From positions 27,991-91,990 of the IMG/VR virus record IMGVR_UViG_3300000228_000003: a stretch of 64,000 bases of DNA, one strand, 5' to 3'. Source of the DNA: a virus. Below, piece by piece: positions 2,391 to 62,240 of this stretch. The translations under genes were made by a program, and so were the position numbers. Under the pieces are notes generated by a model. That model was given only the letters and a program-made list of their open reading frames with translations. It did not search any database and had not been told where the DNA came from. Each line of letters begins with the position of its first letter. Position 1 is the stretch's first letter.

Positions 2391-2441
2391 TCCAATTTAT
2401 TTTAATTTTATATTATTAATATAGAACAGCTATACGATGTT
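2391..2441 (+). promoter_or_regulatory. Cassette promoter plus leader stem-loop, copy 1
   Basis: Contains CCAATTTATTTTAATTT, the box TATATTATTAATA (2409-2421), then GAACAGC-TATAC-GATGTT (stem arms 2425-2430 and 2436-2441, one mismatch). The same order of elements recurs before genes at 29068, 48648 (minus), 52376, 55428, 55947 and 56906. The gene follows with the shared AAAAGGATTT ribosome binding region. Promoter activity is inferred from conservation. Confidence 0.65.
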
Positions 2442-2465
2442 ACTAAAACAAAAAGGATTTATAAT

Positions 2466-2798
2466 ATGTCAATATTAGAAGAAACAGTTATCGCAGAAAT
2501 GCGAAAAGACAGTATGTTAATTCAAGAGACATCGGACGAGACTATACTGATAGCTCTTAAAGGGCTAAAGAGAGTATATGGTTTGTTCTGTAACATGCAG
2601 TTTGATAGGGGTAGCTTTGACCCTATCTTCTTCGACAGTATCGAGGCGTTATCTGCCGCCACAGTAACAGTGGTAGTAAGTTTATATGGTATGAACGCTT
2701 CTGTCGGTATTACAGAGTTCCTTAATGAGAACTCTGTAAATGACCAGCCTCGCGGTGTTTTCTTAGCGAGGATACTGGATAAACTACCAGTTGCTTAG
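2466..2798 (+). CDS. Cassette-driven small protein, 110 aa
   Basis: ATG preceded by AAAAGGATTTATAAT, the leader end shared by all cassette genes. Base composition is richer in G and C than the flanking genes. The protein is acidic at the N-terminus and then mainly helical, with MNASVGITEFLNEN near the middle; no known family. It sits alone between a terminator at 2346 and a bidirectional terminator at 2802. Sharing of the promoter-leader with the papain-like protease and beta-helix genes suggests a common expression time, perhaps an early host-directed protein; this is inference. Confidence 0.6.
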   Translation: MSILEETVIAEMRKDSMLIQETSDETILIALKGLKRVYGLFCNMQFDRGSFDPIFFDSIEALSAATVTVVVSLYGMNASVGITEFLNENSVNDQPRGVFLARILDKLPVA

Positions 2799-8118: not shown

Positions 8119-9015
8119 ATGCTAAGTGATGTAATAGAGTATTTTAAAGATATTTATACGTCTTTTACAAAAGATAATACACTAAGAGCCGTATCGCAAC
8201 TAGCCACAGCTCTTAGTAGTGATGTGATACCAGCTTTAACTATGTTAGATAGTAATTCTAATTTAGAGGTAATAAAAAGAAGCGTACTGCTAACTAATAT
8301 TAATAAATTAGCTAAACTAGGTGCCAAGGATAATGTGGAGTTAATTTCAATCTTGTTAGAGCGATTTAAAATATACGAAAAAAAGTGTCAAGATTTAGAA
8401 GAACTAGTAGAAAGTAATCTAGCTAATTACACAGCTAACACTGGTACTAGTCTAAAAGATATAACCATACTAAAAGTTATAGAAGATATATCAGATTTAA
8501 CACTTTATACACTAGATATTATAGACTATATTTTATTAAATGGTGGCGATAGTAATAACTATCCAGCTGCTAAAATAAAATATATTAAAGAAGGTGTGTA
8601 TCCATATGTTAAACTTTTAGATTATTATACTAGAGAAAAGTTGACATCCATTATAAAAATTATACCAAAATTATCTGATAAAACAGTGGATGTTGTCAAT
8701 AATAAAAAAAGTATGGTTATGACATTATTTGGTAAAACAAGTAGTGATGTAGAAAATTTACCTATCAACGGATTTATAGGTAATCCTATCTACCATATAA
8801 GAATATATATGGTAGATAAAGAAATAGCTAAATATAAAATACTAAAAGATAAAAAGAAACTTATAGAACTTAGGATATTGGAACTTAAAGCAAAAGAACA
8901 ATCTGCACCAATAGAAGAAAAGAGTAGATTAGAAACAGCTATAGAGTATCACACTAAGATGTTATTAGAGCAAGAACGCTCTTTAGAAAAAGTAGAAAAG
9001 AAATATGGAGGATAA
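8119..9015 (+). CDS. Hypothetical helical protein with C-terminal coiled coil, 298 aa
   Basis: ATG with AAGGATAAAC upstream. Nearly all-helical. The last ~70 residues (from about 225) are a strongly charged Lys/Glu coiled coil, with YKILKDKKKLIELRIL and later KMLLEQERSLEKVEK. It ends 3 bases before the first internal head protein paralogue, whose RBS (GGAGG) lies inside its last codons. It may be a scaffold or tail-length-type helper; this is inferred from shape and position only. Confidence 0.45.
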   Translation: MLSDVIEYFKDIYTSFTKDNTLRAVSQLATALSSDVIPALTMLDSNSNLEVIKRSVLLTNINKLAKLGAKDNVELISILLERFKIYEKKCQDLEELVESNLANYTANTGTSLKDITILKVIEDISDLTLYTLDIIDYILLNGGDSNNYPAAKIKYIKEGVYPYVKLLDYYTREKLTSIIKIIPKLSDKTVDVVNNKKSMVMTLFGKTSSDVENLPINGFIGNPIYHIRIYMVDKEIAKYKILKDKKKLIELRILELKAKEQSAPIEEKSRLETAIEYHTKMLLEQERSLEKVEKKYGG

Positions 9016-9018
9016 GAT

Positions 9019-10416: not shown

Positions 10417-10427
10417 GGAAAGAAAAT

Positions 10428-28625: not shown

Positions 28626-29003
28626 ATGGGAAATGAAAAAATAATAATACAAACTATAATGTTTATTTTAACTTTTACTATAATAGCAATAACGATATTA
28701 ACTGGTTTTGCTATGTACAGGGATACGGTAGATATTAAAGTAGTATATGACCATTTTAGAGATATAATAATGGCTATTATTACATTACTAACCGGAGTGA
28801 TTACAGGTAAATTCGCATTGACTACACCTGGTAGTAAAATAAACGACGTAGGTCCATTACCGCCACCAGATTTAGTATTACCACCTGAAACATTTAATGG
28901 TGAAGTAAACAACCAGTCTACTAACACGGAAGATAGTGTAATTAACATACAACATGCAACTATAAATGTGTATGACGCAGTAGATATATCTAAAAAAAGC
29001 TAA
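28626..29003 (+). CDS. Small membrane protein with two TM segments, 125 aa (holin candidate)
   Basis: ATG with AAAGGATAGC upstream. Two hydrophobic segments: about residues 7-30 (IIIQTIMFILTFTIIAITIL) and 46-65 (DIIMAIITLLTGVITGKFA), separated by a short charged loop. A Pro-rich (PLPPPDLVLPP) Asn/Thr-rich soluble tail of ~55 residues follows. Size and topology would fit a holin or a membrane-bound particle accessory, but no lysis gene is beside it. It ends just before a cassette promoter. Confidence 0.5.
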   Translation: MGNEKIIIQTIMFILTFTIIAITILTGFAMYRDTVDIKVVYDHFRDIIMAIITLLTGVITGKFALTTPGSKINDVGPLPPPDLVLPPETFNGEVNNQSTNTEDSVINIQHATINVYDAVDISKKS

Positions 29004-29006
29004 GCC

Positions 29007-29039
29007 TATATTACTATAATAGAACATCTTTATGATGTT
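29007..29039 (+). promoter_or_regulatory. Cassette promoter plus leader stem-loop, copy 2
   Basis: TATATTAC (29007-29014), ATAATAGAAC, then a perfect 6-bp stem AACATC/GATGTT (29023-29028 with 29034-29039) and TACTAAA. TATATTAC is, to my recollection, the core of phiKZ-type early promoters. Confidence 0.65.
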
Positions 29040-29067
29040 ACTAAACTTTAATATATAAGGGTATATT

Positions 29068-29757
29068 ATGCGCACATTTACGCTAACACCTGTCGCGGTA
29101 CTTACATTAGACTTGTACAACTACTTAGTAGATAGCGATAATGAAAGTTTTATTATGCAGTCATATTGTGTACTTTTTAAGACAGCTGGTGTGGAACATA
29201 AATTCTATTATACAAATTTAGAACTGTATCAACTACGCGGCTTATTTAGCCTTTACGATGTGAAGGATTACACCTCGAACATAGATACACTAATCAATAT
29301 CTATCATACTGAGGAAAAAAGAATACCAGAGTTCTTCTACACTGTTGATAAAGATATTAATTTATGGAAATACGCATTTGACTTACTAGTATACAGCGCA
29401 TTTAGAAGGTATGTGTATAAAAAACTAGAATCCAGTATAAAAAATAATACTATAGAGGATTTTAAAAAGACTCTAATCAGTAATTCTTTCATATTGCCAT
29501 ACAGTGACATATTACAGTATGACCAATATATGTGTTCTTTTGATAACACACTTAAGACATCCTTAACTTATAGCGATTGTTCCACAATAGCATATTGGTT
29601 ACTAGAAAGTAAAGAAGTAAGAATTAAGTATATGAAAAAACCAAAAGTATTACCGCATGGAACATCAGTAGATGGTAACAATATAGTTAATGTTAATGGT
29701 GATGGTATATTTACTAATCACTACTTAATAAAAAATAACTATATAATATACACATAA
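29068..29757 (+). CDS. Cassette-driven protein of unknown function, 229 aa
   Basis: ATG with AAGGGTATATT upstream, downstream of cassette copy 2; the leader between stem-loop and RBS differs from the AAGGATTTAAAATG type. The protein is aromatic-rich, partly helical, with a central Lys-rich helix (YVYKKLESSIKNNTIEDFKK) and a short C-terminal beta region (VNVNGDGIF). No family recognised. It forms a single-gene unit between cassette promoter and terminator, like the other cassette genes, but shares the AT-rich composition of the core genome. Confidence 0.5.
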   Translation: MRTFTLTPVAVLTLDLYNYLVDSDNESFIMQSYCVLFKTAGVEHKFYYTNLELYQLRGLFSLYDVKDYTSNIDTLINIYHTEEKRIPEFFYTVDKDINLWKYAFDLLVYSAFRRYVYKKLESSIKNNTIEDFKKTLISNSFILPYSDILQYDQYMCSFDNTLKTSLTYSDCSTIAYWLLESKEVRIKYMKKPKVLPHGTSVDGNNIVNVNGDGIFTNHYLIKNNYIIYT

Positions 29758-47885: not shown

Positions 47886-47939
47886 TGTATTCCTTAATGT
47901 ATTATTCATTTATTCTTAGCTAAATAAAAAAAATAATGT

Positions 47940-47975
47940 ATTAGCAGATAGGGGATGACTCCCCTATCTGCTAAT
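47940..47975 (-). terminator. Terminator of the papain-like protease gene
   Basis: Sixteen-bp stem (47940-47955 with 47960-47975), loop TGAC, overlapping the protease stop codon; on the minus strand it is followed by a run of eight T. It separates the protease gene from RecJ. Confidence 0.8.
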
Positions 47976-48648
47976 TTCCTAATATGTATATTATATTAGG
48001 GGCGAGTGCTCCTAGCAGCATTTGGCTACTGATTGCCCAGTAGCCCTTATCACCAGAGTCTTCTCCTGACGAATCACGTAGCATTATAGTCTCTCCGTCT
48101 GTGGAGATTCCACAGACTATCATCGCGTGTAACGAAAACATCTTATCTGAGAATAACTTGGCAGCCAAGGTATGACCTCTCTCTAAGTTCTGCTTAGAGA
48201 AGCATATGTTACTATCTTTATACGCGGCTAAATGCATTATACTTTGTACACACACCAACAAGGGTTTACCAGCCGTAATTGCTGGTATAACTTGTTGCAC
48301 ACTAAGTTTATTGTACCCGCGTGAGCCTACCGCGTTTTCTAGCATTTGCACTATATCTATGTTTGTTAAACCATCGACGCCTTCTTTTTTAATAGACCTA
48401 TACCAATCATCTGGATTGGTAGGACACTGTACCCCGTGAAATCCCATTAGTCCTGCCATAGCGTGGCAGACACAGCTAGCTGTCTCCTGTTTTGTCACAG
48501 GGGGCATTGTAGTTCTTAGGTCTACTCCCCAAGTTATTTTTTTACCGAAACCTATTCGGTAAGGTAACATCATTGTTACAACAAGAATGACGATAGGTCC
48601 TATGGTCACTATAATAAAAATACCTAATATTAAAATTAAATTTAACAT
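47971..48648 (-). CDS. Membrane-anchored papain-like (C1A) cysteine peptidase, 225 aa
   Basis: ATG with CCTAAGGATTTAAA upstream, the cassette leader. A single hydrophobic segment (about 2-28) anchors the N-terminus. The peptidase C1 pattern follows: VTKQETASCVCHAMAG (Q54, C59) where papain has the oxyanion Gln and SCW; FSLHAMIVCGIS (H174); RDSSGEDSGDKGYWAIS (D192-S193 in place of Asn-Ser-Trp, then GYW). At ~170 residues the catalytic part is shorter than cathepsins, with no propeptide. Clearly richer in GC than neighbouring genes. Papain-like proteases are rare in phages; possible roles are host-protein attack or particle maturation. Activity is not proven. Confidence 0.7.
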   Translation of the reverse strand: MLNLILILGIFIIVTIGPIVILVVTMMLPYRIGFGKKITWGVDLRTTMPPVTKQETASCVCHAMAGLMGFHGVQCPTNPDDWYRSIKKEGVDGLTNIDIVQMLENAVGSRGYNKLSVQQVIPAITAGKPLLVCVQSIMHLAAYKDSNICFSKQNLERGHTLAAKLFSDKMFSLHAMIVCGISTDGETIMLRDSSGEDSGDKGYWAISSQMLLGALAPNIIYILGN

Positions 48649-48670
48649 TTTAAATCCTTAGGAAAAAAGT

Positions 48671-48715
48671 AACACTATACGGTGTTCTATATCTGTTATA
48701 TAGGATTAGAAAGAT
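48671..48715 (-). promoter_or_regulatory. Cassette promoter plus leader stem-loop, copy 3 (minus strand)
   Basis: On the minus strand: TTCTAATCCTATATAACAG, ATATAGAACACC, stem arms AACAC/GTGTT, then TACTTTTTTCCTAAGGATTTAAAATG. It is nearly identical to the copy before the beta-helix gene at 52376. Confidence 0.7.
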
Positions 48716-48840
48716 TTAAAAAATGAGCATACTCCTTATTAACTATATTGATAACTAAAGTAATGTATTATTATTTCAGTTTATAACCAACTTATTTTTT
48801 TATCTTAATATAACTAGAATATCTGTATCCTATTTTTTAG

Positions 48841-48881
48841 TAATATTATATTATTAATAAGTAGCAAGCATTAATTTGCTA
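48841..48881 (+). promoter_or_regulatory. TATATTATTAATAA box with a different leader stem-loop
   Basis: Box at 48847-48860, then a 6-bp stem TAGCAA/TTGCTA (48862-48867 with 48876-48881). The position of the stem relative to the box mirrors the cassette leaders, but the stem sequence is unrelated. It precedes the 448-aa gene. Confidence 0.5.
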
Positions 48882-48906
48882 AGTAGGTGTAGATAAGGAA
48901 TTAAAC

Positions 48907-50253
48907 ATGATTGCAATAGACGAAAATAACGCCATGCGGATAGCGGCGCAAATACTGAGTAAGTTATTTGGTATTTGCAATATTAACTCAGCAGAAGACA
49001 TAGAACACGTAGAACATTTATTACAACTTTACCCAGGACAACTATCTGGTGAAGCACGCACTAACATAAGTAATAGTGTTAGTGTTAGGGACAGTATTAT
49101 AATGGACACGGATCCAAGATATTTAGTGTCCATTAAAGGTGTGGATGAGATGCTCGATGTATCTATTTTTAACTGCACGCGTAGTGGTAGTGCGGACATA
49201 ATCGAAAGAATATCGTTATGGTTGAAAAAATGCTATAACACTATAGATGGTATAACTAAAAAAGTTAAAGAAGCCATAACTACAGAAAATGTTGATTTAT
49301 TTATTAATATGACAAAAACGGGAGCTTTTAATTTAACACAGTCAACGTGGATATTAAGAACTATTATTAAAAACGGAAAACATATTCTTTTAAGAAGACT
49401 TGTTAATCACGAAGTAATAGGCCCCACGTTAGATTACCTTGATATGTTGTGCTTAGCAGTAAAAACGGACTATATCCAAATTATAACGTGTATACTAGAG
49501 GCAAAGTATGCTAGTAATAAACTATCGTATGGCGATTTAACTACTATTATCGCCAATATTGATAGTCCAACTAGTGTAGCGATATACGATACTCTTTCAT
49601 CTTTTATAGAACATAACTATAAAAAAGAGGTTAATAGTAATAAGACAGACGATGTTGCTAAGTCTTCTGCGTTAAATACCGACACAGCTGAACCTGTGTT
49701 ATTAGTTAGCGGACAAAATAATGCCAATACAGTAATTAGTGTAGTTTCTAAGACAAATACTAATGGTACTAAAGAGGGTTCAATAACTAAAATTATAAAA
49801 CTAAGAAGTAAGGAAACTAAAAAACAAACTATTCTTACTGTGGGGCACGAAGCGGCTACCACCGTAACACCTAAGATAAATAAGGAGGTAACATATAGTG
49901 ACACATATGTTAATATTTATTTAACAGAAGTATGTAGTACATTAATGGAAAATGGTAACAACATCAATGATGAAGAGATAGCTAATATCATAATAGATAT
50001 TAATAGCAAATTTAAAAAGAACATTGATGAAAGTTTAATCTTGAACACAATAACAAAAATAAATACTAAAAAGGAGATAGATAAAGAGACATTTAAACAA
50101 AAAGTACTAAGTATATTACAGGCCGGTATATCAGAGGAAAGTATACTAACGAATATTCGTCACATAGTAGATGTGTATTTTGATAAAGTTAATATAATCG
50201 ATATTACAAGTATCGACACTATATGCGCTAATATATTAAATTCAGAAGGATGA
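48907..50253 (+). CDS. Hypothetical protein, 448 aa
   Basis: ATG with AAGGAATTAAAC upstream. The N-terminal ~230 residues are helical with repeat-like helix pairs (TWILRTIIKNGKHILLRRLVN), vaguely solenoid-like. A Thr/Lys/Asn linker lies at about 240-315 and a Lys/Glu-rich helical C-terminal domain follows. No family recognised. The next gene follows after 3 bases. Divergent from the papain-like protease over a 258-base gap that holds the promoter elements for both. Confidence 0.5.
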   Translation: MIAIDENNAMRIAAQILSKLFGICNINSAEDIEHVEHLLQLYPGQLSGEARTNISNSVSVRDSIIMDTDPRYLVSIKGVDEMLDVSIFNCTRSGSADIIERISLWLKKCYNTIDGITKKVKEAITTENVDLFINMTKTGAFNLTQSTWILRTIIKNGKHILLRRLVNHEVIGPTLDYLDMLCLAVKTDYIQIITCILEAKYASNKLSYGDLTTIIANIDSPTSVAIYDTLSSFIEHNYKKEVNSNKTDDVAKSSALNTDTAEPVLLVSGQNNANTVISVVSKTNTNGTKEGSITKIIKLRSKETKKQTILTVGHEAATTVTPKINKEVTYSDTYVNIYLTEVCSTLMENGNNINDEEIANIIIDINSKFKKNIDESLILNTITKINTKKEIDKETFKQKVLSILQAGISEESILTNIRHIVDVYFDKVNIIDITSIDTICANILNSEG

Positions 50254-50256
50254 TTT

Positions 50257-50775
50257 ATGTCGATAGATAAAAAAGTAAATGAGTATATACTAAAAAAAGC
50301 ATTAATAGAACTAACTATTGATAGACTAAGCACTTACATAGCAGATAATGCTAAAGACACAGCAAAAGGTTTACTAGATATTATTAACGAGTTAGGACAA
50401 GAGGCTAAAACATACCCAGATGCGCCGAAAGCATTAGACGCCTTGTTTAATAGGCTAACTAGCAGTTTTGAAAATACCTTAGAAGAAGATTTTCCAAAAG
50501 ATTTATTACCACAAATTTATAAGTCCAACCATGACACCTTTAAACAACTATTAAAAGATAAGATGTCTAATTTTAGTTACACTGTAACATTAGCCACAAA
50601 AGATGGTGTTATAGAGCACGTATACGAAGTTATTGCGGCAGGCATACCTGACGACAGAAAAGAAGCGATAAGAAACGTCATCATAGCTACTGTAAACGCA
50701 TTAACCGGACAACCTAAAGATATGGATATAGATAAGATAACTTTGTTAGTACAAGCTAAACTAAGATTTATCTAA
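50257..50775 (+). CDS. Hypothetical helical protein, 172 aa
   Basis: ATG 3 bases after the previous stop, with GAAGGATGATTT overlapping it. Helical, Lys/Asp-rich, about the size of a small assembly chaperone; segment EDFPKDLLPQIYKSNH in the middle. No family recognised. The stop codon lies inside the first unit of a 35-bp tandem duplication that includes the terminator. Confidence 0.5.
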   Translation: MSIDKKVNEYILKKALIELTIDRLSTYIADNAKDTAKGLLDIINELGQEAKTYPDAPKALDALFNRLTSSFENTLEEDFPKDLLPQIYKSNHDTFKQLLKDKMSNFSYTVTLATKDGVIEHVYEVIAAGIPDDRKEAIRNVIIATVNALTGQPKDMDIDKITLLVQAKLRFI

Positions 50776-50850
50776 CCGTCATTGCACTATAGATAGCATG
50801 TGCTATCTAACCGTCATTGCACTATAGATAGCACATGCTATCTATAGTGC
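50770..50850 (+). terminator. Terminator within a 35-bp tandem duplication
   Basis: Units begin at 50770 and 50805, each with ATCTAACCGTCATTGCACT; they differ only near their ends. Unit 2 plus the next 11 bases forms a 15-bp stem (50819-50833 with 50836-50850). Unit 1 can fold into a shorter stem. A T7 run lies at 50871-50877. Confidence 0.7.
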
Positions 50851-50900
50851 GTTATACTTACTAGTCTATCTTTTTTTGATTTTAACAAAAGGTAATAAAA

Positions 50901-51077
50901 ATGGATAATTTTACATTTACACAAGTACCACGTCCTGGTTCGCAAATAACAGTTGCGTTTGGTGGCGGTGATATGAAAACTATAAAACAAGCAGTAACTA
51001 AGGATGGAAAAGAAGTAGTAACATCTAGTGATGCTACTAAAATATTACAAGAAACATTTAAACATGATAAAAAATAA
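50901..51077 (+). CDS. Small protein, 58 aa
   Basis: ATG with AAAAGGTAATAAAA upstream, ending TAA at 51075-51077; the following gene's ATG (51064) overlaps its end by 14 bases. It begins MDNFTFTQVPRPGSQITVAF and ends in a charged helix (KILQETFKHDKK). Good RBS, spacing after a terminator and overlap with a longer gene make it a credible real gene despite its size. Function unknown. Confidence 0.55.
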   Translation: MDNFTFTQVPRPGSQITVAFGGGDMKTIKQAVTKDGKEVVTSSDATKILQETFKHDKK

Positions 51078-52293
51078 CAATACAGATAATAGGGATATTA
51101 AAGTAGTATTTACCGACAGACTAGAGCATATAAAATGGAATATGTCTTTCTATAATGAATTAAAGAAAGTACGTCTAAGTTGGGTTGGTAAAGACCCTAT
51201 GTATGCAGAGTTCTTAGGTGGTAACACTATAGGAGTACAACCTATAAGATATAGTGCACAAGATATGGATATGTTATTTATACACTTGCTAGGCATAGAT
51301 AGAACTAGCCTAGATAAAGAACTATCCAAGCTAGTAGGTATAGAGAAAACGTTCATTGTAAGCTCTGATGTAACATATCTAACACTTGGTTATATTATGC
51401 ATAAATTTGCTACATTACCTATTTTTAAAAATGTAATGGTAGAAGCTATACGTAATACTTATTACATATTTGCTTATAGAGCACTAGGCAGTATGATGTA
51501 TCACTGGTTCGGTATGTATAACTTAGACCAAGCAGTAGCTATAGCAGCTTTTGAGAAATTAACTAATCAATACTTAATAAAGAAACTAGGCAGTTGGGAA
51601 AAGTTATTAGAATATAGAGCTAATGATTTACTACCAAATGGGGCACAGTGGGATAGAGTGACAGCGTATACTACCAGTGATGCTACAAGGATGGTAGCCG
51701 ACCTACAGGGGGCATTAAAAGATCAGATGGTAAATTTACGTGGTATAATAGAGGAAATTTTAAAATCAGGTAGTAAGATTAATGTAGTTAGTAAGTTAGA
51801 AACATATGAGGAAAACATTACACTAAGCGATGTAAGTAATCAGTATATAGAATATAAAAACTACATACACACTATTATAGCTATACCAGCTGATTTTGTA
51901 GATACTGATTTAATATATGTATTATTAAATATTTTAGATAAAAGTAATATAAAACAAAACGATTTAGTACATATACTGAGTAGTATATCTAAACTATATA
52001 ATGATAAAAAAATAGAGGCAGATTTAATAGATAAAATTATTATAACTTCTATAGAGTATTTAACAACTAAAGGTATAATTAATAACTACCATGTAAATTT
52101 AATAGTAATTATTAAAACACTAAAAGGATACTGGTCAGCTAGTAGTGTTAGACATAAAGATGTGTTATATATAAAAAATAAGTTAAATACTATTTGTAAA
52201 AGTAATGGTATAAAACAAACTAATAAAGTAGTAACATTAGTTATATTTATCGCTATATATATTTTTATAAAAGCAGTAGTAAAAAAACACTAG
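51064..52293 (+). CDS. Protein with C-terminal TM segment, 409 aa
   Basis: Start taken at 51064 (MIKNNNTDNRD); an earlier in-frame ATG (51028) lies inside the 58-aa gene and would add 12 atypical residues. The RBS is weak (AAGAAAC), so coupling is likely. The first half has KVRLSWVGKDPMYAEFLGG and YWYHWFGMYN-type aromatic helices (around 140-150). A hydrophobic segment near the end (VVTLVIFIAIYIFIKAVV) followed by KKH is a tail anchor. No family recognised; possibly a membrane-bound assembly factor. Confidence 0.5.
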   Translation: MIKNNNTDNRDIKVVFTDRLEHIKWNMSFYNELKKVRLSWVGKDPMYAEFLGGNTIGVQPIRYSAQDMDMLFIHLLGIDRTSLDKELSKLVGIEKTFIVSSDVTYLTLGYIMHKFATLPIFKNVMVEAIRNTYYIFAYRALGSMMYHWFGMYNLDQAVAIAAFEKLTNQYLIKKLGSWEKLLEYRANDLLPNGAQWDRVTAYTTSDATRMVADLQGALKDQMVNLRGIIEEILKSGSKINVVSKLETYEENITLSDVSNQYIEYKNYIHTIIAIPADFVDTDLIYVLLNILDKSNIKQNDLVHILSSISKLYNDKKIEADLIDKIIITSIEYLTTKGIINNYHVNLIVIIKTLKGYWSASSVRHKDVLYIKNKLNTICKSNGIKQTNKVVTLVIFIAIYIFIKAVVKKH

Positions 52294-52304
52294 CTAGTAG
52301 CTTT

Positions 52305-52352
52305 CCAATTTATTCTAATCCTATATAATATATATGGAACACCTACAGTGTT
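52305..52352 (+). promoter_or_regulatory. Cassette promoter plus leader stem-loop, copy 4
   Basis: CCAATTTATTCTAATCC, TATATAATATATAT, then GAACACC-TACA-GTGTTAC with a perfect 5-bp stem (52338-52342 with 52348-52352). Leader ends CCTAAGGATTTAAAATGG. Confidence 0.7.
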
Positions 52353-52375
52353 ACTATTTCTCCTAAGGATTTAAA

Positions 52376-53101
52376 ATGGAATACAAAGAAGAAGTAAAAG
52401 AAGTAAAAAGTATCTTTACTTTAACGGATGAAGAAAATGCATTCTTTGTTTCCTCGGATGACGAGGCTGAAAAAGTGGAAAGATTTACAATGGGCGACGT
52501 GCTGGAGTTCCAGTATAATACTGCTGGAAAGATAATTTGTCCAGCCGGAAATTACACTGACATTTCCGATTTTCCAAGTGACTGCTACTTCGAAGATACG
52601 CAATTGTTTGGAGATAATGTGTGCTTCGGAAAAAATTGCGTGTTTAAACCAGGATCCAAATTCGGAGCTAGCTGCACCTTCGCAAGAGGATGCAAGTTCG
52701 GACCGAGCTCGCAATTCGGTGAGTGTTGTGAGTTTGGAAGCTGGTGCGAATTCGGGTTTGACTGCACCTTCGCAAGGAGGTGCGACTTCGGAAGAAGGGG
52801 CGTATTCGGGCACGATTGTGCCTTTGCAAGTGGGTGCACATATGGTGAGGACACCACCATAATCAGAGGCGCCTTTGATGAGCTGGGGATGGGGGCGGAC
52901 GACGCGCCTATCCTTCAGTGCGTAGTCGGCAAAGAGACATTGCGTGCGTATCGCCTTCGTGGCGATATTATGGTGATTGTACCATTCTTCGAAGGTACTC
53001 TCCATGAATACGGGCAGCAAATGGGTACCATACATGGACACCCAGCTGACGTCCAGAAGGCCTTCATGGGTCTTATAAAAGCGGCGTGGGGGGTAGTATA
53101 A
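52376..53101 (+). CDS. Cys-rich hexapeptide-repeat beta-helix protein, 241 aa
   Basis: Start follows the shared AAGGATTTAAAATGG leader. An acidic N-terminal module (MEYKEEVKEV, then LTDEENAFFVSSDD) is shared in part with other cassette genes. Residues 70-159 form about fifteen six-residue repeats of the type x-x-F-G-x-x, many starting with Cys (CTFARG, CKFGPS, CEFGSW), which predicts a left-handed parallel beta-helix with a Cys ladder. A ~75-residue C-terminal domain follows. Codon use is much more GC-rich than neighbours. Function unknown; host-directed binding or mimicry is possible. Antisense long frames over it are repeat artefacts. Confidence 0.7.
   Translation: MEYKEEVKEVKSIFTLTDEENAFFVSSDDEAEKVERFTMGDVLEFQYNTAGKIICPAGNYTDISDFPSDCYFEDTQLFGDNVCFGKNCVFKPGSKFGASCTFARGCKFGPSSQFGECCEFGSWCEFGFDCTFARRCDFGRRGVFGHDCAFASGCTYGEDTTIIRGAFDELGMGADDAPILQCVVGKETLRAYRLRGDIMVIVPFFEGTLHEYGQQMGTIHGHPADVQKAFMGLIKAAWGVV
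52583..52852 (+). repeat. 18-bp-period coding repeat (FG hexads)
   Basis: Codons for x-x-F-G-x-x recur about fifteen times, with DNA blocks such as TGCACCTTCGCAAG and AAGTTCGGA repeated nearly unchanged, suggesting recent internal duplication. Confidence 0.7.
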
Positions 53102-53102
53102 G

Positions 53103-53134
53103 GAGGAAGCGGTGGTTAGTACCACCGTCTCCTC
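53103..53134 (+). terminator. Terminator of the beta-helix gene
   Basis: Stem GAGGA..CGGTGGT with ACCACCG..TCCTC, loop TAGT, two internal mismatches, then TTTCCTTTTTT. Its layout is related to the ending of the 133-aa cassette gene near 56330-56378. Confidence 0.7.
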
Positions 53135-53148
53135 TTTCCTTTTTTATT

Positions 53149-55290
53149 TTATGTAGCAAAATATCTTTTATGTTTAAAACCATTCTTTTGTTGTTCTATT
53201 TTGATATTATCTATTAATGTTTCTATATTATACGCTGGCATCGCGCGGTGGTCTACACCGTTATATAGACGTCTTATTTTAAGTTCGATTAACCGACTAC
53301 TTATAGGGTCATTCTTCTCTTTCATCGCTATAAGTAGATTGTCTATAGTTTCTTTTAATGCCATTTGTTTTTCTTTTTTCTCTATTTCTTCGATACCACC
53401 TTTTTCTGCTATCATAAGATTTTGCACAGTCGATAATACACTATTAGAAGATATACCATAGAAACTTTTATTCTTAGCAGATAATAGAAAATAATAACAT
53501 AACAACCAACCTATAACTAAGTCATCATGGTCATCAGGTCCGTCACCGTGGTCTATTCTATTATTTTTTATAGTTAAAGACAATAGTTGTGCTATTAGCT
53601 TACTGTCACGCACTGTGTTAGAAGTATATTTTATACTGTGATTAAAAGCCACACTATATAAATTGTCTCTTGCAGCACGCCCAGAACCTGATGTAGCATA
53701 ACCGAACTCGCCCCTGTATTTTTCATAAACCCAGCTTGGTCTCTTGTACATAGGCGTATCTATAACATATTTTCTATAGTTTTCATTAACATCATAATCA
53801 TTAACTACCCAGTTAAATAATACCTTAAATGGGTCTATGTTAAGTAGTGGTAGTATTCTTATTAGATTATCAATTATGGCTTGTCCGGTACTCTTGTTTT
53901 CTATTATCATAACTATATTAGGATACTTTACTATAAGTTCACCTAGCCAGTCTGAAAATATAATAAGGTTAGTTTCATTATAGTCCCCTATAGCAAGAAG
54001 CTCTCCAGTTGATACATCCCGCATAACTAACGACATATCATCTCCACCTGTAGCGTTAGATGTGTCTATACCAGCTACTATGCTTCTACCTTTTATACTA
54101 TCTAAATCAACATACCATCTTAATGTATATCCATATTTATAAATCTCTATTTTAGGATTAGTATCTTTAGAAGCATTTATTATGTCTAAATACTTTTTAT
54201 CTATAGGAGAAGCATCGCTACCAGATATCCATATGTTCATATACTCAGCTTGTCCAGATATAGGGTCAGCCATATTTTCATCCATGATATCTTTAAATTC
54301 TTTATCAGTGTAACCAAGTTGTCTATGATTATACTCTAGTAACATAACTCTATTACCTTTACCACTACTTATCTGTAATAACTCTTGTAGTTCTTCTGTA
54401 GTAGATATATCTAGAAGTTTATCAGTCCATCTCATACTGTTTTTATATATATTATGAGCATACTTACCAGACTTAGTATATAGATATCCAGCTGTTGTAG
54501 TAAATATATTACCATATGGTGCATTCGCTACTTTAGCGTTCTCTCTAGCCGCAGGAGTAGCCGCTAACATAGCTGGTAGTGTGATATCTATATTACTTAT
54601 AAACGCTAATTCATCTACATGATTATTAGGTAGTGTCATACCTCTACCAACCTTTAACGCATTAACTGGGGATGGTTGTGCTACTAGTGTGGAATAAGTA
54701 TTATTTAAAGCACTTATTTTAAGTAATTCTGTATTCCAAGTGTCTGTTTTTAATTTAAATTGTAAGTAATAAGGCAGTTGTGCATATATACCTTTTATTC
54801 TGTCTACATTTTTTACTCTTAGACTATCGTCTTTAGTAAGAAGACTTATTTCCATATCTGATGTCATTATAGAAAATAGCACTACCCATAGTACATCTGT
54901 AGAAACAGATTTACCAGTTTGCCTTGGTTGTATTAATAAAATAGTTATGTGCTGAAAGTATAACCAGTATAAACTTATATTTGCTCTGTTAGCATTAAAA
55001 GGTATATCAGACCTACCAGAGTTAGGTGGTAGCCTAATAAGTTCTCTTATGACGTACCAATAGTTAACGGTACATTCTTCTACGACCATAGCCATTTGTT
55101 CTTGAGTTAACTCTAGCGAAAATGGGTCTACACTAACTAACTCTGGATTATGTAATGCTAGCATAAAGTTATTATTTTTAATACCCATCATATGGAACAG
55201 CGTAGCTAGTCTTACGAATGATTTATTTTTACTCTCATAGTTCGCTATAGCCGATGGATATTTAGCCCAGTCTTCTTGTCTTAGTATCAT
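53149..55290 (-). CDS. Terminase large subunit (TerL), 713 aa
   Basis: ATG with AAAAAGGACACAG upstream. The ATPase has QPRQTGKS (121-128, Walker A), VDELAF (225-230, Walker B with catalytic Glu) and TTAGYLYTKSGKY (about 260-275, motif III region). The C-terminal RNase H-like nuclease shows AGIDTSNATGGDD (about 404-416), IVMIIENKSTG and DHDDLVIGWLL, giving the acidic triad. This is the motor that cuts and packages genomic DNA through the portal. It is complete and shows no intron or intein. It lies inside the cassette-gene array: beta-helix gene convergent, 130-aa cassette gene divergent. Confidence 0.93.
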   Translation of the reverse strand: MILRQEDWAKYPSAIANYESKNKSFVRLATLFHMMGIKNNNFMLALHNPELVSVDPFSLELTQEQMAMVVEECTVNYWYVIRELIRLPPNSGRSDIPFNANRANISLYWLYFQHITILLIQPRQTGKSVSTDVLWVVLFSIMTSDMEISLLTKDDSLRVKNVDRIKGIYAQLPYYLQFKLKTDTWNTELLKISALNNTYSTLVAQPSPVNALKVGRGMTLPNNHVDELAFISNIDITLPAMLAATPAARENAKVANAPYGNIFTTTAGYLYTKSGKYAHNIYKNSMRWTDKLLDISTTEELQELLQISSGKGNRVMLLEYNHRQLGYTDKEFKDIMDENMADPISGQAEYMNIWISGSDASPIDKKYLDIINASKDTNPKIEIYKYGYTLRWYVDLDSIKGRSIVAGIDTSNATGGDDMSLVMRDVSTGELLAIGDYNETNLIIFSDWLGELIVKYPNIVMIIENKSTGQAIIDNLIRILPLLNIDPFKVLFNWVVNDYDVNENYRKYVIDTPMYKRPSWVYEKYRGEFGYATSGSGRAARDNLYSVAFNHSIKYTSNTVRDSKLIAQLLSLTIKNNRIDHGDGPDDHDDLVIGWLLCYYFLLSAKNKSFYGISSNSVLSTVQNLMIAEKGGIEEIEKKEKQMALKETIDNLLIAMKEKNDPISSRLIELKIRRLYNGVDHRAMPAYNIETLIDNIKIEQQKNGFKHKRYFAT

Positions 55291-55356
55291 CTGTGTCCTT
55301 TTTATTTATACAAAGTTCATTAAATTTTATAAAATTATAATACTAGATAGTAGCTT

Positions 55357-55405
55357 CCAATTTATTTTAATCTTATATTATTAATATAGAACATCTTATG
55401 GTGTT
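55357..55405 (+). promoter_or_regulatory. Cassette promoter plus leader stem-loop, copy 5
   Basis: CCAATTTATTTTAATC, TATATTATTAATA (55374-55386), TAG, then stem AACATC/GGTGTT (55390-55395 with 55400-55405), which pairs fully only as RNA because it needs one U-G pair. Confidence 0.7.
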
Positions 55406-55427
55406 ACTAAAAACAAAAGGATTTAAA

Positions 55428-55820
55428 ATGGCAACAATAAAAATTAAAAAGGAAACAGATATCAACACTGAAACGGACGAGGAGATTGCTGCCGGATTGG
55501 TGGCAGTCGCGGCTGCTTCGGCAGCAATGAATATGATAGCATGCGGTGCGAACCGTGTAATTATATATGATCCAAAGGGTTGTTGGGGAGCCTGGGTGAT
55601 TCTAGACAGCAAGTGTCATCCATTGGATAGAAATAATAGGCCTATTCTATCTATTACGGACGAACTACTAAGAATAGCCTTGGGAATGTGCGGAGACAGC
55701 TTTGATTTTATCCGCCTGTCAAAGGACGATAAGGTAACACCTATCGTCAATTATCGCGGAGGAAGAGAGTACGGCAATTCCATTTACTTTGCCAAGACAG
55801 AGCACCTGCGGTGGCACTAG
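55428..55820 (+). CDS. Cassette family protein 1, 130 aa
   Basis: Start at the ATG of the AAAGGATTTAAAATGG leader; the frame extends to 55398 but without an RBS. Acidic Lys/Glu N-terminus (ETDINTETDEE), Ala-rich hydrophobic helix (about 23-40), then the family core RVIIYDPKGCWGAW, LDSKCHPLD, RIALGMCGDSFDF and DKVTP. Two close paralogues lie at 55947 and 56906. Conserved Cys and Trp suggest a small metal- or disulfide-stabilised fold. The stop codon sits in the loop of a terminal hairpin (55810-55825). GC-richer than core genes. Function unknown. Confidence 0.6.
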   Translation: MATIKIKKETDINTETDEEIAAGLVAVAAASAAMNMIACGANRVIIYDPKGCWGAWVILDSKCHPLDRNNRPILSITDELLRIALGMCGDSFDFIRLSKDDKVTPIVNYRGGREYGNSIYFAKTEHLRWH

Positions 55821-55825
55821 CCACC
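55810..55825 (+). terminator. Hairpin over the stop codon of cassette gene 1
   Basis: GGTGGC/GCCACC stem with ACTA loop. No clear T-tract follows, so it may only weaken transcription before the next cassette promoter. Confidence 0.45.
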
Positions 55826-55880
55826 ACGAGCTAGTTCACGTCTATCAGCACGTAATTATATAGTATTACGTTGATTAACA

Positions 55881-55919
55881 TAATATTACTATAATAAAAA
55901 TAGAACATCTTATAGTGAT
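55881..55919 (+). promoter_or_regulatory. Cassette promoter plus degenerate leader stem-loop, copy 6
   Basis: TAATATTACTATAATA, then AATAGAACATC-TTAT-AGTGAT; the right arm has two changes relative to GGTGTT, weakening the stem. Leader continues to AAAAGGATTTAAAATGG. Confidence 0.6.
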
Positions 55920-55946
55920 ACTAAAACAAAAAAAAAAGGATTTAAA

Positions 55947-56348
55947 ATGGAATACAAAGAAGAAGTAAAAGATATTCTTACACTATCAGAGGATGGTATA
56001 GAGAACACGGATGAGGAAGCTGCCATGATAGCTGCGGTAGCTGCTACAGCGGCAATGAATATGTTATCACGCGGGGTGTACCGTGTAATTATATATGACC
56101 CAAAGGGTTGTTGGGGATGCTGGGCAACTTTAGACAGTGCTTGCCATTCACTAGACTGGTCTGGGTATCGAGTATCGTCCATCCTAGCTCTTCTAATAAA
56201 AATAGCCTTGGGAATGTGCGGAGATAGCTTTGACCTCCTCCCATTATCGATTGAGGATAAGGTAACCCCCGTATCAAAAAGCGGGGAAGGAAGGGACTAT
56301 GGCGACTCCCTTAGCTTTGCCAAGATGGAGGATCTGCGGTGGTATTAA
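55947..56348 (+). CDS. Cassette family protein 2, 133 aa
   Basis: N-terminal MEYKEEVKD is nearly that of the beta-helix protein at 52376 (MEYKEEVKEV), but the rest follows the cassette-family core: AAMNMLSRG, RVIIYDPKGCWGCWATLDSACHSLDW, ALLIKIALGMCGDSFDLLPLS, ending FAKMEDLRWY. It is thus a chimera of an N-terminal module and a family body. The end of the gene (GCGGTGG around the stop, then CTCCTC and T8) matches the beta-helix gene terminator. Function unknown. Confidence 0.6.
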   Translation: MEYKEEVKDILTLSEDGIENTDEEAAMIAAVAATAAMNMLSRGVYRVIIYDPKGCWGCWATLDSACHSLDWSGYRVSSILALLIKIALGMCGDSFDLLPLSIEDKVTPVSKSGEGRDYGDSLSFAKMEDLRWY

Positions 56349-56378
56349 CCATCACCGCCTCCTCTCTCCTTTTTTTAT
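56330..56378 (+). terminator. Terminator of cassette gene 2
   Basis: Stem GCGGTG/CACCGC around the stop codon, then CTCCTCTCTCCTTTTTTT; related to the terminator at 53103-53134. Confidence 0.65.
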
Positions 56379-56408
56379 TATATTTATGAATTTAAATAAG
56401 GAAAGACA

Positions 56409-56837
56409 ATGTCTACACTAACAGTAAATAACACATATAGCTTTAGTACTAAAATACCAGCAGTATTAGGTTCTACGTATAATAATGCTAAACTAGTAGC
56501 TATATTAACACCAGAGCTAGCGGTCACATTGGGTTCTGGCGGTATAGATATACCAACTAACCACATAACTATTGCCAATGAGTTAAGAAAACAAAACGAT
56601 TTAGTCTCTATAAATTATAGAGATTTACAAACTTGGTATTTATTCGATATACAAGGACAACGTAAAATATTTGCTGCGGAGTATTTAATACTGGGTACTG
56701 TAACACAAGTGTCTAATACTAATTTAGATATTAGCATAACAAGTATCAACCCATCGCTTGTTAATATGGTATTAGAAACATTAAAAAAATTATTACCAAC
56801 TAGTGCTATTACACATACTGTAATAACTAGTTCTTAA
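56409..56837 (+). CDS. Hypothetical beta-rich protein, 142 aa
   Basis: ATG with AAGGAAAGACA upstream. AT-rich like core genes, in contrast to the cassette genes on both sides. The protein has ILTPELAVTLGSGGIDIP and a strand pattern YLFDIQGQRKIFAAEYLI typical of a small beta-barrel; it may be a structural or regulatory factor. No family recognised. It interrupts the array of cassette genes, so the array is not purely tandem. Confidence 0.5.
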   Translation: MSTLTVNNTYSFSTKIPAVLGSTYNNAKLVAILTPELAVTLGSGGIDIPTNHITIANELRKQNDLVSINYRDLQTWYLFDIQGQRKIFAAEYLILGTVTQVSNTNLDISITSINPSLVNMVLETLKKLLPTSAITHTVITSS

Positions 56838-56883
56838 TTTATTCTAATTTTATATTATTAATATAGAACATCTATACGGTGTT
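56833..56883 (+). promoter_or_regulatory. Cassette promoter plus leader stem-loop, copy 7
   Basis: TTAATTTATTCTAATTT, TATATTATTAATATAG (56851-56866), stem AACATC/GGTGTT (56867-56872 with 56878-56883), then TACTAAAATAAAAAGGATTTAAAATGG. Confidence 0.7.
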
Positions 56884-56905
56884 ACTAAAATAAAAAGGAT
56901 TTAAA

Positions 56906-57265
56906 ATGGCAACAATAGAAGCTAAAAAGGAAACGGACGAGGAGAACGCGTTCTCTGCTTCGTCGTACGGGGAAGTTGTTACAAAGAATACGGATGAGAA
57001 AGCGTCTATGATAGCCGCGGTAGCTGCTACCGCGGCAATGAATATGTTATCACGCGGTGCAAACCGTGTAATTATATATGACCCAAAGGGTTGTTGTGAA
57101 TGCTGGGCAACTTTAGATAGTACTTGCCATTCACTAGATTGGAATGGGAGACGTGTATCGTCCATCCTAGCTCTTCTAATAAAAATAGCATTGGAAATGT
57201 GCGGAGATAGCTTTGACCTCCTCCCATTATCGATTAATGAAAAGATAACACCTGACGTCAATTAG
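56906..57265 (+). CDS. Cassette family protein 3, truncated, 119 aa
   Basis: N-terminus MATIEAKKETDEENAFSASS joins the MATI start of family member 1 to the DEENAF segment seen in the beta-helix protein. The body (AAMNMLSRG, RVIIYDPKGCCECW, MCGDSFDLLPLS) is close to member 2. It ends early: a TAG stop stands where member 1 has Tyr (VNY). The C-terminal family residues continue in frame after the stop as unread sequence. Whether the shortened protein works is unknown. Confidence 0.55.
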   Translation: MATIEAKKETDEENAFSASSYGEVVTKNTDEKASMIAAVAATAAMNMLSRGANRVIIYDPKGCCECWATLDSTCHSLDWNGRRVSSILALLIKIALEMCGDSFDLLPLSINEKITPDVN

Positions 57266-57313
57266 CACAGAAGGAAGGACTATGGTGATACCCTTAGCTT
57301 TGTCAAGATAGAA
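57266..57313 (+). pseudogene. Unread 3' remnant of cassette family gene 3
   Basis: In frame after the TAG, the bases still encode KDYGDTLSFVKIEH, matching REYGNSIYFAKTEH and RDYGDSLSFAKMED of members 1 and 2. The remnant runs straight into the next leader stem-loop at AAGATAGAACACC, where the promoter box should be. Confidence 0.65.
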
Positions 57314-57327
57314 CACCATATAGTGTT
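57311..57327 (+). promoter_or_regulatory. Leader stem-loop copy 8 without promoter box
   Basis: Perfect AACAC/GTGTT stem (57312-57316 with 57323-57327) followed by TACTAAAATTTAAAAGGATTTTAAAATGG; the AT-rich box seen upstream in the other copies is missing. Confidence 0.6.
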
Positions 57328-57351
57328 ACTAAAATTTAAAAGGATTTTAAA

Positions 57352-57552
57352 ATGGTCTGCATAGAGAGTGCTTTTATCATAACAGATGAGGATACTGCGT
57401 TTTTTACATCCTCCGATTACGCGGACACAGTTACGGAAGCTACGTCGTCTGCAGAGACTCTGTCGGTTATCGCAATGGTATTAGACATGACGACATATGA
57501 TGCTCGTTTACGACCCGTATGGGGAATAGATAGCCTAGATAACGTTATATAG
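57352..57552 (+). CDS. Cassette-type small protein, 66 aa
   Basis: ATG with AAAAGGATTTTAAA upstream. Residues 8-22 (FIITDEDTAFFTSSD) match FTLTDEENAFFVSSD of the beta-helix protein, but the remaining ~40 residues resemble nothing else here. It thus carries the shared N-terminal module on a different, short body, or is a deletion remnant. GC-richer than the following core genes. It has no own promoter box, so it may depend on read-through from copy 7. Confidence 0.5.
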   Translation: MVCIESAFIITDEDTAFFTSSDYADTVTEATSSAETLSVIAMVLDMTTYDARLRPVWGIDSLDNVI

Positions 57553-57569
57553 TAAAAGGAGTAATAGTT

Positions 57570-57896
57570 ATGGATAAGCACAGTGACTTATTAGCAATAT
57601 TAAAAAAGGTAGATAACAAAGTTATTTGTACGCAGGATGAGTTGTCAGTAGCTATAGGACATATTAGTAACGTACTTTATGCTAGAGAGATGTTTTATTT
57701 CGGTTTACCTAAAGCCGATTTAGATATAAACACTAATGATGCAGTTAACGATAATATGCTAAAAGGATTATCTCTTATATACGGAGATAATATTCCAAAA
57801 AATGAAGTAAACATTGTTAAGTATATGCTTAACAACCATGCGGAGGCATTAGCGTTATTAGAGTATTATATACTTTATCATAACTCAGAAATATAA
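57570..57896 (+). CDS. Hypothetical protein, 108 aa
   Basis: ATG with AAAAGGAGTAATAGTT upstream, a strong RBS. AT-rich core-genome composition. Helical, with a charged N-terminus (DLLAILKKVDNKVI) and an AEALALLEYYIL helix at the end; no family recognised. It is closed by a classical terminator (57905-57934). Confidence 0.55.
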   Translation: MDKHSDLLAILKKVDNKVICTQDELSVAIGHISNVLYAREMFYFGLPKADLDINTNDAVNDNMLKGLSLIYGDNIPKNEVNIVKYMLNNHAEALALLEYYILYHNSEI

Positions 57897-57904
57897 ATAA
57901 AAAG

Positions 57905-57934
57905 TAGTAACTATGGGTAATCCCATAGTTACTA
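57905..57934 (+). terminator. Intrinsic terminator, 13-bp stem
   Basis: Perfect stem 57905-57917 with 57922-57934, loop TAAT, then GCTTATTTTTTTT. Confidence 0.8.
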
Positions 57935-57986
57935 GCTTATTTTTTTTATAACTATATTTTTAGATAAGATAATAAAAGGATACTTG

Positions 57987-59075
57987 ATGGCTAACGTGTT
58001 AGTGATATCCGATATACACCTAGGTAGAAATAAAGATTTAACTATTTCTATAATAAACAATTTAAGGGCATACTTTGATACTAATAAAAAACTATTCTCT
58101 AAATTAGATGTTATTATTATAGCTGGCGACACATTCGATAAGTTACTGACTACTAATGGTGTTTTATACGCTATGTGCATAAACTGGTTATTAGAACTAT
58201 GTTTATACTGCAGTGAAAAAAATATAATATTAAGAATACTAGAGGGGACACCTAGTCACGATTGGAAACAAGTTAAGATACTGGATACTATATTAGCTAA
58301 TAACCAAATAAAATTAGATTATAAATATGTAGATACTATTTATATAGAGCATATAACTAATTTAAATATTAATATAGGATATATACCAGACGAGGGTAGT
58401 GTTAGTAACACATATAATGTTTTTAAAGACTATATGAAAGATAATAATATTTTTAATTTAGATTTACTTATTATGCATGGTTTTTTTAAGTATCAACTGC
58501 CACAACTAGTTAACCAAGGACACGATGAGCAAGAATACTTAAATATAGTTAAAGGATATATATGCATAGGTCATATTCACACGCCAAGTGTTTATGCTAA
58601 AATACTAGGACCTGGTAGTTTTGATAGACTAGCACATGGCGAAGAAGAAGATAAGGGCGGGTTGTTTATACACTTAGGTAGTTCTAACTCATATCAGTTT
58701 ATTAAAAACTTTAATGCTACTAAATATAAAACATTAAAGTATAATGAAAAATTAATTAGTATAGATAAGGTAGTTGATGATGTTAGTAAGCTGGTAACAG
58801 AATATAAATACATAAGAGTATTAATTTACACTAATATCTCTATAACTGGCTTAGAAACATCGCTACAAAAGAAATATGCGGATAATGTATTTAGTATAAA
58901 TAAAATAACAAGCGAGGCACAAGCAACACACGAGTTGCCAACTATAAGTTATAATACAGGCTTCCCTATTACTAAAGATAATATAGAACAATTACTTCTT
59001 TTAAGAGTTAAGCATTATAACTTATCAGAAGAAAAACTAAAACTATTTAAGCAAGAACTTCTTAAAATATTGTAA
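57987..59075 (+). CDS. SbcD/Mre11-like metallophosphoesterase, 362 aa
   Basis: Start taken at ATG 57987, seven bases after AAAAGGA; a TTG one codon earlier is possible. Calcineurin-type motifs: SDIHLGRN (D9, H11), AGDTFD (D48), GTPSHD (87-92, replacing the classical GNHD), IMHG (H164), IGHIHTP (H196, H198). The C-terminal ~100 residues are a Lys/Glu-rich extension. Phage relatives act with an SbcC/gp46-type ATPase as DNA end-processing nucleases; the partner is not in this window. Adjacent ATP-grasp and SSB-like genes suggest a DNA-metabolism operon. Confidence 0.8.
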   Translation: MANVLVISDIHLGRNKDLTISIINNLRAYFDTNKKLFSKLDVIIIAGDTFDKLLTTNGVLYAMCINWLLELCLYCSEKNIILRILEGTPSHDWKQVKILDTILANNQIKLDYKYVDTIYIEHITNLNINIGYIPDEGSVSNTYNVFKDYMKDNNIFNLDLLIMHGFFKYQLPQLVNQGHDEQEYLNIVKGYICIGHIHTPSVYAKILGPGSFDRLAHGEEEDKGGLFIHLGSSNSYQFIKNFNATKYKTLKYNEKLISIDKVVDDVSKLVTEYKYIRVLIYTNISITGLETSLQKKYADNVFSINKITSEAQATHELPTISYNTGFPITKDNIEQLLLLRVKHYNLSEEKLKLFKQELLKIL

Positions 59076-61757: not shown

Positions 61758-62090
61758 ATGGTCGTATGCTGGAAAGATTACATTGGTTCACTGGACGACC
61801 ATCCAAATGTGGATAAACTTTCTATCAGGATGGTGGACGATAACTATCAAGACATAATAAATGGAAAAGTTATAGATACAGATAACTTTTATAAAGAGTT
61901 TAAGCCATCCAGTGTTTATTCGATAAGCGATGTGGATAGAGAATACGTTATGTTAAAAGAAGTAAATCATATTTGGTCGCTTTACGATTTAGATAATCTA
62001 TTACTTTTAACAAACGGGTATCATCGGCATAGTAAAGTTATAGGATATGTTATTACTGACAAACCCTGGGTCATCGCAGCTACAATCTGA
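61758..62090 (+). CDS. Hypothetical protein, 110 aa
   Basis: ATG with TTAAGGATAATTA upstream. Asp/Tyr-rich, with VVCWKDYIGSLDDHP at the start and PWVIAATI at the end, probably one small alpha/beta domain. No family recognised. Last gene of its unit before the hairpin at 62115. Confidence 0.5.
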   Translation: MVVCWKDYIGSLDDHPNVDKLSIRMVDDNYQDIINGKVIDTDNFYKEFKPSSVYSISDVDREYVMLKEVNHIWSLYDLDNLLLLTNGYHRHSKVIGYVITDKPWVIAATI

Positions 62091-62144: not shown

Positions 62145-62185
62145 AAGGCTACCTTTTTATTAGTATTTCTATTTTTTTTTAATCT

Positions 62186-62200
62186 TATATTATTAATTAG
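62186..62200 (+). promoter_or_regulatory. TATATTATTAATTAG promoter-like box
   Basis: Same box as in the cassette leaders with AATCT in front and no AACAYC stem-loop after it; 40 bases before the TTG-started 507-aa gene. Confidence 0.55.
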
Positions 62201-62240
62201 TAACAACTAGTACTAACTATATTTACTTAAAGGAACGCAC

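Follow-up and report, generated by a model that had tools for sequence, protein, structure and literature searches.

A dispersed family of leader-bearing small genes in a putative nucleus-forming jumbo phage, probably early accessory-gene cassettes

Nucleus-forming jumbo phages are thought to keep their DNA apart from that of other genomes, which makes the route by which they gain accessory genes an open question. The question bears on a stretch of 64,000 nucleotides (hereafter the window, positions 27991-91990 of a 118,709-base IMG/VR virus record), in which small genes of unusual composition surround the gene of the terminase large subunit (TerL). A preliminary description of the window saw in them an evolving pool of accessory proteins, built by recombination inside conserved leaders and N-termini.

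By profile matches, the window encodes a phiKZ-type terminase, a major head protein and the beta subunit of an RNA polymerase (RNAP; phrog_3148, E=4e-291). TerL matches phrog_2 (E=2e-54 in the profile search), stands at 42% to the TerL of FLC9 and has phiKZ-like relatives. A second RNAP beta gene, outside the window, is homologous to phiKZ 071-073, part of the nvRNAP (phrog_3295, E=5e-130), and a gene matching the major nuclear shell protein lies at contig 8668-10491 (L004:8668-10491; phrog_4795, E=1.2e-12). Two features of the Chimalliviridae, namely multisubunit phage RNAPs together with a phiKZ-type TerL, and the nuclear shell protein, are thus present; the shell-type gene is divergent, since tblastn against isolate phages gave no match. 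On the strength of the TerL, head protein, RNAP, nuclear-shell and nvRNAP matches, the phage is a phiKZ-like jumbo phage and probably a divergent member of the nucleus-forming group (Chimalliviridae). Isolate relatives have genomes of about 230-320 kb, so that the record probably covers only a portion of the genome of this phage. No tRNAs were found in the window, and an Rfam search of window 47900-58200 returned nothing.

Leader anatomy and copies

The leader is an element of about 75 nt made up of four parts. An AT-rich core that resembles a promoter (TATATTAT or TATATAAT) is separated by 6-7 bases from an inverted repeat (GAACAYC..RTGNTACT, or GAACAYC..RTGTTACT), and this is followed by an AGGATTT ribosome site and then the ATG, which sits 39-46 bases past the G of GAACA. 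The genes named in the preliminary description were all found at their coordinates, and the leaders that it ascribed to them are well above chance: the strict pattern occurs 7 times in the window, whereas none would be expected (0 in 100 dinucleotide shuffles). The array around TerL has the following features (GC3, third-position GC; PWM, weight matrix).

52303..52375, +, leader of the 241-aa gene: TATATAAT, inverted repeat, AGGATTT (PWM, pattern, repeat families D4/D5)
52376..53101, +, 241-aa protein that starts with MEYKEEVK and has the TDEENAFFVSSD module, a hexapeptide-like solenoid at about 70-155 and a domain at the C-terminus; GC3 0.49 (weak Hexapep/LpxD similarity)
53100..53147, +, intrinsic-terminator-like hairpin and T run closing the 52376 cassette (70-nt stretch, -25.2 kcal/mol)
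53149..55290, -, TerL, given as context and not a cassette (phrog_2)
55355..55427, +, leader of paralogue 1 (repeat search, PWM, pattern)
55428..55820, +, paralogue 1: 130 aa, MATI start, GC3 0.46 (paralogue comparison, GC3)
55876..55946, +, leader of paralogue 2, with diverged promoter and an inverted repeat that fails to fold (promoter/repeat scan, folding)
55947..56348, +, paralogue 2: 133 aa, MEYKEEVK start, GC3 0.43 (paralogue comparison, GC3)
56409..56837, +, SH3DP-domain protein of ordinary composition (GC3 0.18), within the array, without leader, not a cassette gene (PF20287, E=7e-6)
56832..56905, +, leader of paralogue 3 (repeat search, PWM, pattern)
56906..57265, +, paralogue 3: 119 aa, MATI start and TDEENAF module, GC3 0.40 (paralogue comparison, GC3)
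57266..57310, +, decayed remnant of the 3' part of paralogue 3, which at GATAGA passes straight into the next leader (tail alignment stops where the leader starts)
57307..57351, +, leader of the 66-aa gene, without promoter core (PWM, promoter/repeat scan, tail alignment)
57352..57552, +, 66-aa protein with TDEDTAFFTSSD module, GC3 0.42 (GC3, module alignment)

A looser scan used a weight matrix built from the five genes of the preliminary description and the copy at 48648, the latter shown by the repeat search. It returned ten leader copies on the 118.7-kb contig, on both strands, four of them further ones (window 2466 and 29068, contig 952 and 23070). The scores of the ten run from 14 to 57 bits, while the top scores of the null lie near 10 (16.4 at most), and nine are far above chance. 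The copy at 29068 is borderline, its 13.9 bits falling inside the null extreme; it is clear in separate promoter and repeat scans, but was itself used to build those models. Only five of the ten copies lie around TerL, where the array had been placed, and the others, at window 2466, 29068 and 48648 and at contig 952 and 23070, are dispersed over the contig. The leader genes are therefore a dispersed family of about ten, larger than first reported. Moreover, two genes in or beside the array do not belong to the family: the SH3DP gene at 56409, which passes its profile cut-off (26.1 vs 25 bits), and the gene at 57570, in or beside the array (GC3 0.27), both of ordinary composition and without leader. 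The dispersed members in the window, with one promoter core for comparison, are these.

2396..2465, +, leader of the first member of the dispersed pair (PWM, promoter/repeat scan, pattern)
2466..2798, +, 110-aa protein, GC3 0.41, 57% identical to the product of contig 23070-23402 (L005:3070-3402) (alignment, GC3)
28994..29067, +, weaker copy of the leader, with TATATTAC as its core, an inverted repeat of 6 bp and a different ribosome site (PWM, promoter/repeat scan, folding)
29068..29757, +, orphan of 229 aa preceded by that weaker copy, GC3 0.29 (GC3)
47971..48648, -, protein of 225 aa, hydrophobic at its N-terminus and bearing papain-like C/H motifs, GC3 0.38; a terminator-like hairpin of 16 bp comes after the gene (Peptidase_C1_2, E=0.007, under the cut-off)
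48649..48722, -, leader of the papain-like gene (repeat search, PWM, pattern)
62173..62240, +, promoter core without leader repeat, ahead of a conserved gene (phrog_3209) (promoter scan)

Behind the leaders stand seven protein families: the trio of paralogues, the 110-aa pair, the hexapeptide-repeat protein, the 66-aa protein, the papain-like protein and two orphans. Terminator-like hairpins follow five of the cassettes. The inverted repeat of the leader itself spans 5-6 bp at most and has no T run, three of the ten leaders form the shared hairpin poorly, and covariation did not support it, the pair statistics not differing from those of shuffles; its reading as a hairpin is therefore weak. 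A separate repeat lies at window 50769-50850, just past the gene 50257-50775: a 35-bp direct repeat with a perfect 26-bp inverted repeat.

Composition, modules and decay

Base composition had been said to differ from that of core genes, a contrast that can now be put more sharply. With genes called by a greedy open-frame rule (108 on the contig), mean GC3 is 0.392 in leader genes and 0.215 in the 98 others (p=1.5e-7). The contrast holds with one count per protein family (p=8e-6) and for the five leader copies missing from the preliminary description, tested alone (p=1.3e-4). In fact, the seven genes of highest GC3 on the contig all bear a leader (the sixth was listed as an antisense frame over 56906). 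The rise begins within the genes: GC is an ordinary 0.28 over the seven codons that follow the ATG and 0.40-0.42 in the bodies, while in non-leader genes it is 0.30-0.32 throughout, without a step past the first codons. A foreign origin of the bodies may be inferred from these values; the high GC3 could instead be selected, as paralogues with dS about 1.1 keep it. Two genes without leader also have raised GC3, a 110-aa gene at window 61758-62090 (0.33, the top value among non-leader genes) and a 284-aa gene at L004:3138-3992 (0.32, z 4.3).

The N-terminal pieces were described as being combined with different bodies, and their similarity survived proper alignment. The genes at 52376 and 55947 are 100% identical over 37 nt spanning the ribosome site, the ATG and MEYKEEVK, and diverge after that; 55428 and 56906 have leader and MATI in common; and the TDEENAFF/SSD module (TDEEN.F..SS) is common to 52376, 56906 and 57352, with none of 1000 shuffled N-termini scoring as high. 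The bodies behind common N-termini showed no similarity when alignments were compared with shuffles, the strongest pair (57352 vs 48648) being matched by 4% of shuffles.

There are also signs of cassette duplication and decay. The cassettes at 2466 and contig 23070 are 76% identical over 480 nt, leader and terminator included. The three paralogues are 56-74% identical, and the dN/dS of paralogue pairs, 0.25-0.50 (dS about 1.1), indicates that the products are under purifying selection. Paralogue 3 is shortened relative to its sisters by an in-frame TAG, and past its stop the tail remains similar to a sister up to GATAGA, where it turns into the leader of the 66-aa gene (57266-57310). This one sharp junction and the one whole-cassette duplication are suggestive of recombination as the mechanism.

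None of the leader-gene products has a confident match in Pfam, PHROGs, NCBIfam or fold libraries. In the 241-aa protein the Hexapep repeats reach 14.8 bits against a cut-off of 27, LpxD chains match over the repeat only (E=0.002), and the single-sequence model is poor (pLDDT 43). For the trio, the model of paralogue 2 has a mean pLDDT of 62, with the N-terminal 21 residues below 50, and no known structure matched it at an E-value of 0.001 or lower. The papain-like product reaches 15.6 bits against a cut-off of 22 for Peptidase_C1_2 and has no sequence match in the PDB; with its Papain/C39-like motifs and hydrophobic N-terminus, this leader-borne gene (47971-48648, -) might encode an early membrane-anchored protease. 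An anti-host function of the cassette products is a reasonable guess.

Relatives and expression timing

The nearest relatives found have 49-52% TerL identity, and because none is closer than about 52%, gain, loss and swapping of cassettes are not directly visible. The distant relatives nevertheless differ from this phage in the content of the locus. In L022, L023 and L025 an SbcD-like gene and TerL are divergent neighbours, 75-600 bp apart with nothing between, whereas in the window the SbcD-TerL pair is 2.7 kb apart with cassettes in between. The trio was not found in the 25 related records searched, and in the same records the papain-like protein has one marginal match only (E=0.0095); an empty result there is weak evidence in either case. 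Alignment scans of viral and genome contigs gave no relatives of the trio, the candidates in L008 and L009 being rejected as antisense chance frames over terminase- and portal-like genes. Likewise, a search of other records for the pattern from promoter through repeat found no leader, and pattern matches in L010-L016 were rejected, as they are one repeated sequence with no start codon behind it. Unbiased clustering of upstream regions in four relatives recovered similar promoter families (AACCATATATTATTTATATAG) and few composition outliers, and no repeat-bearing leader like that of this phage. One such family, in G002 (TTCCAAT..CTATATTAT / TTCCAAT..CTATATTATAA), stands before about seven genes without the repeat, and their GC3, where measured, is 0.24-0.37 against a median of 0.27. 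The proposed pool of accessory proteins is thus borne out in part, by the conserved leaders and N-termini, duplication, module reuse, decay, separate composition and absence at the syntenic site of relatives.

As regards timing, the promoter core scores 26-32 bits in eight of the ten leaders against a null top of about 13, with a model built from the leaders. Without the repeat, the same core precedes the nuclear-shell gene, the nvRNAP-beta gene (the phiKZ 071-073 homologue) and other conserved genes. In AR9, early promoters have the form AAATATATATTAT-(6N)-G (PMC5312081), and chimallin and nvRNAP subunits are early products in the phages studied (PMC12908238, PMC10612078). The leaders resemble the early promoters of AR9 and phiKZ (PMC5312081, PMC7058600) in an AT-rich core, TATATTAT/TATATTAC, some 6 nt upstream of the expected start, where a purine stands at the predicted start site, and in the presence of this core before nvRNAP and nuclear-shell genes. 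The core is therefore probably an early promoter, and by this analogy the cassettes are likely expressed early. The 33 early-promoter genes of AR9 differ in that they have neither a common stem-loop leader nor a composition shift.

Readings of the cassette family

The best reading, which we hold to be moderately probable, is a genome-wide family of self-contained expression cassettes for early accessory genes, which duplicate, exchange N-termini and decay. Each cassette would have a promoter of early type and the repeated 5' leader, which holds a short inverted repeat and a strong ribosome site; a short ORF would follow and, in many cases, an intrinsic terminator. A new or foreign small ORF that joins the leader, or the leader and first codons, presumably by recombination at the leader, would be expressed at the start of infection, with transcription by the virion RNA polymerase. 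Whole cassettes would be copied to other sites, N-terminal pieces swapped between cassettes and some copies left to decay, and the products may act in early host takeover or counter-defence.

Alternatively, these could be native early genes in which selection for codon use or for mRNA structure has driven GC3 up, the leader being an ordinary regulon element and the paralogues in-situ duplicates. We regard this as possible but doubtful. It would explain why all the paralogues keep GC3 at 0.40-0.46 despite dS about 1.1, which is unexpected for a decaying foreign composition, and it agrees with dN/dS below 1. Moreover, genes with the promoter core only (nuclear shell, nvRNAP and others) are themselves slightly raised (GC3 0.253, p=0.001), so that part of the GC3 effect may be selection. 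However, these genes, with the same core and no leader, lie far below the leader genes (0.25 vs 0.39, p=5e-5), and a general GC3 bias of early genes is absent in AR9, where 33 genes behind annotated early promoters have GC3 0.169 vs 0.169 for the rest (p=0.53). Nor does the account sit well with a composition that rises only past the first codons (0.28 to 0.42), or with families not found in relatives.

The common N-termini could also be a destination tag, for the virion or a phage compartment, kept by function and not by recombination. T4 internal proteins carry a common N-terminal segment on different bodies behind conserved leaders, and this segment targets them to the capsid and is cleaved. 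The likeness to the present locus extends to the segment, the differing bodies and the leaders; nothing here indicates virion packaging, which early-type promoters would also misfit. Modules conserved at the protein level before unrelated bodies, and the low-confidence N-terminus of the modelled paralogue, would suit a flexible tag, yet the N-terminal pieces are of three kinds or more, they are missing from several leader genes, and the similarity begins in non-coding leader DNA, in the 37 nt that span the ATG. We judge such a tag quite improbable. Chance similarity or an assembly artefact would be extremely improbable: AT-rich sequence does give rise to many weak repeats, but the pattern matches against none expected, the open frames under purifying selection and the spread of copies over the contig on both strands all speak against it.

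If the cassette reading is followed, the leader is a sequence tag on compositionally atypical genes, which allows a simple listing of candidate early effectors in a genome that is hard to annotate, and gives a handle on how accessory genes are acquired. The data suggest that new accessory genes, possibly host-fighting ones, may be captured and spread as ready-to-express cassettes. A bolder version, which we think unlikely, is that leader and first codons form a gene-capture platform of one nucleus-forming lineage, from which ORFs that land there would be expressed off the incoming phage genome within minutes, the leader RNA aiding exit from the early vesicle or preferential translation; the cassettes would then be a renewable arsenal of early host-takeover proteins.

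Among known systems, the T4-like phages have mobile regulatory cassettes called PeSLs (Arbiol et al. 2010; Comeau et al. 2014, via PMC4503421). As far as they are described in that source, they resemble the present leaders in being a repeated promoter element (early in PeSLs, probably early in our case) with a stem-loop or inverted repeat, placed before accessory genes; the gene shuffling to which PeSLs are tied may have a counterpart here. The stem-loop of a PeSL serves as a terminator and is joined to the promoter, whereas here the inverted repeat comes after the promoter, ahead of the ribosome site, and is no terminator. Unlike in PeSLs as there portrayed, terminators stand at the cassette ends, the promoter is of the virion-polymerase type of phiKZ/AR9, the leader takes N-terminal codons along with it, and members occur singly across the genome as well as clustered. 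On this account, the cassettes are best read as analogous to PeSLs yet distinct, and are not classed with them because the place and nature of the stem-loop differ. A PeSL-like arrangement was observed in G002 (L108-L118), where two promoter copies, near 52661-53347 and 173969-175215, also share an upstream terminator-like hairpin.
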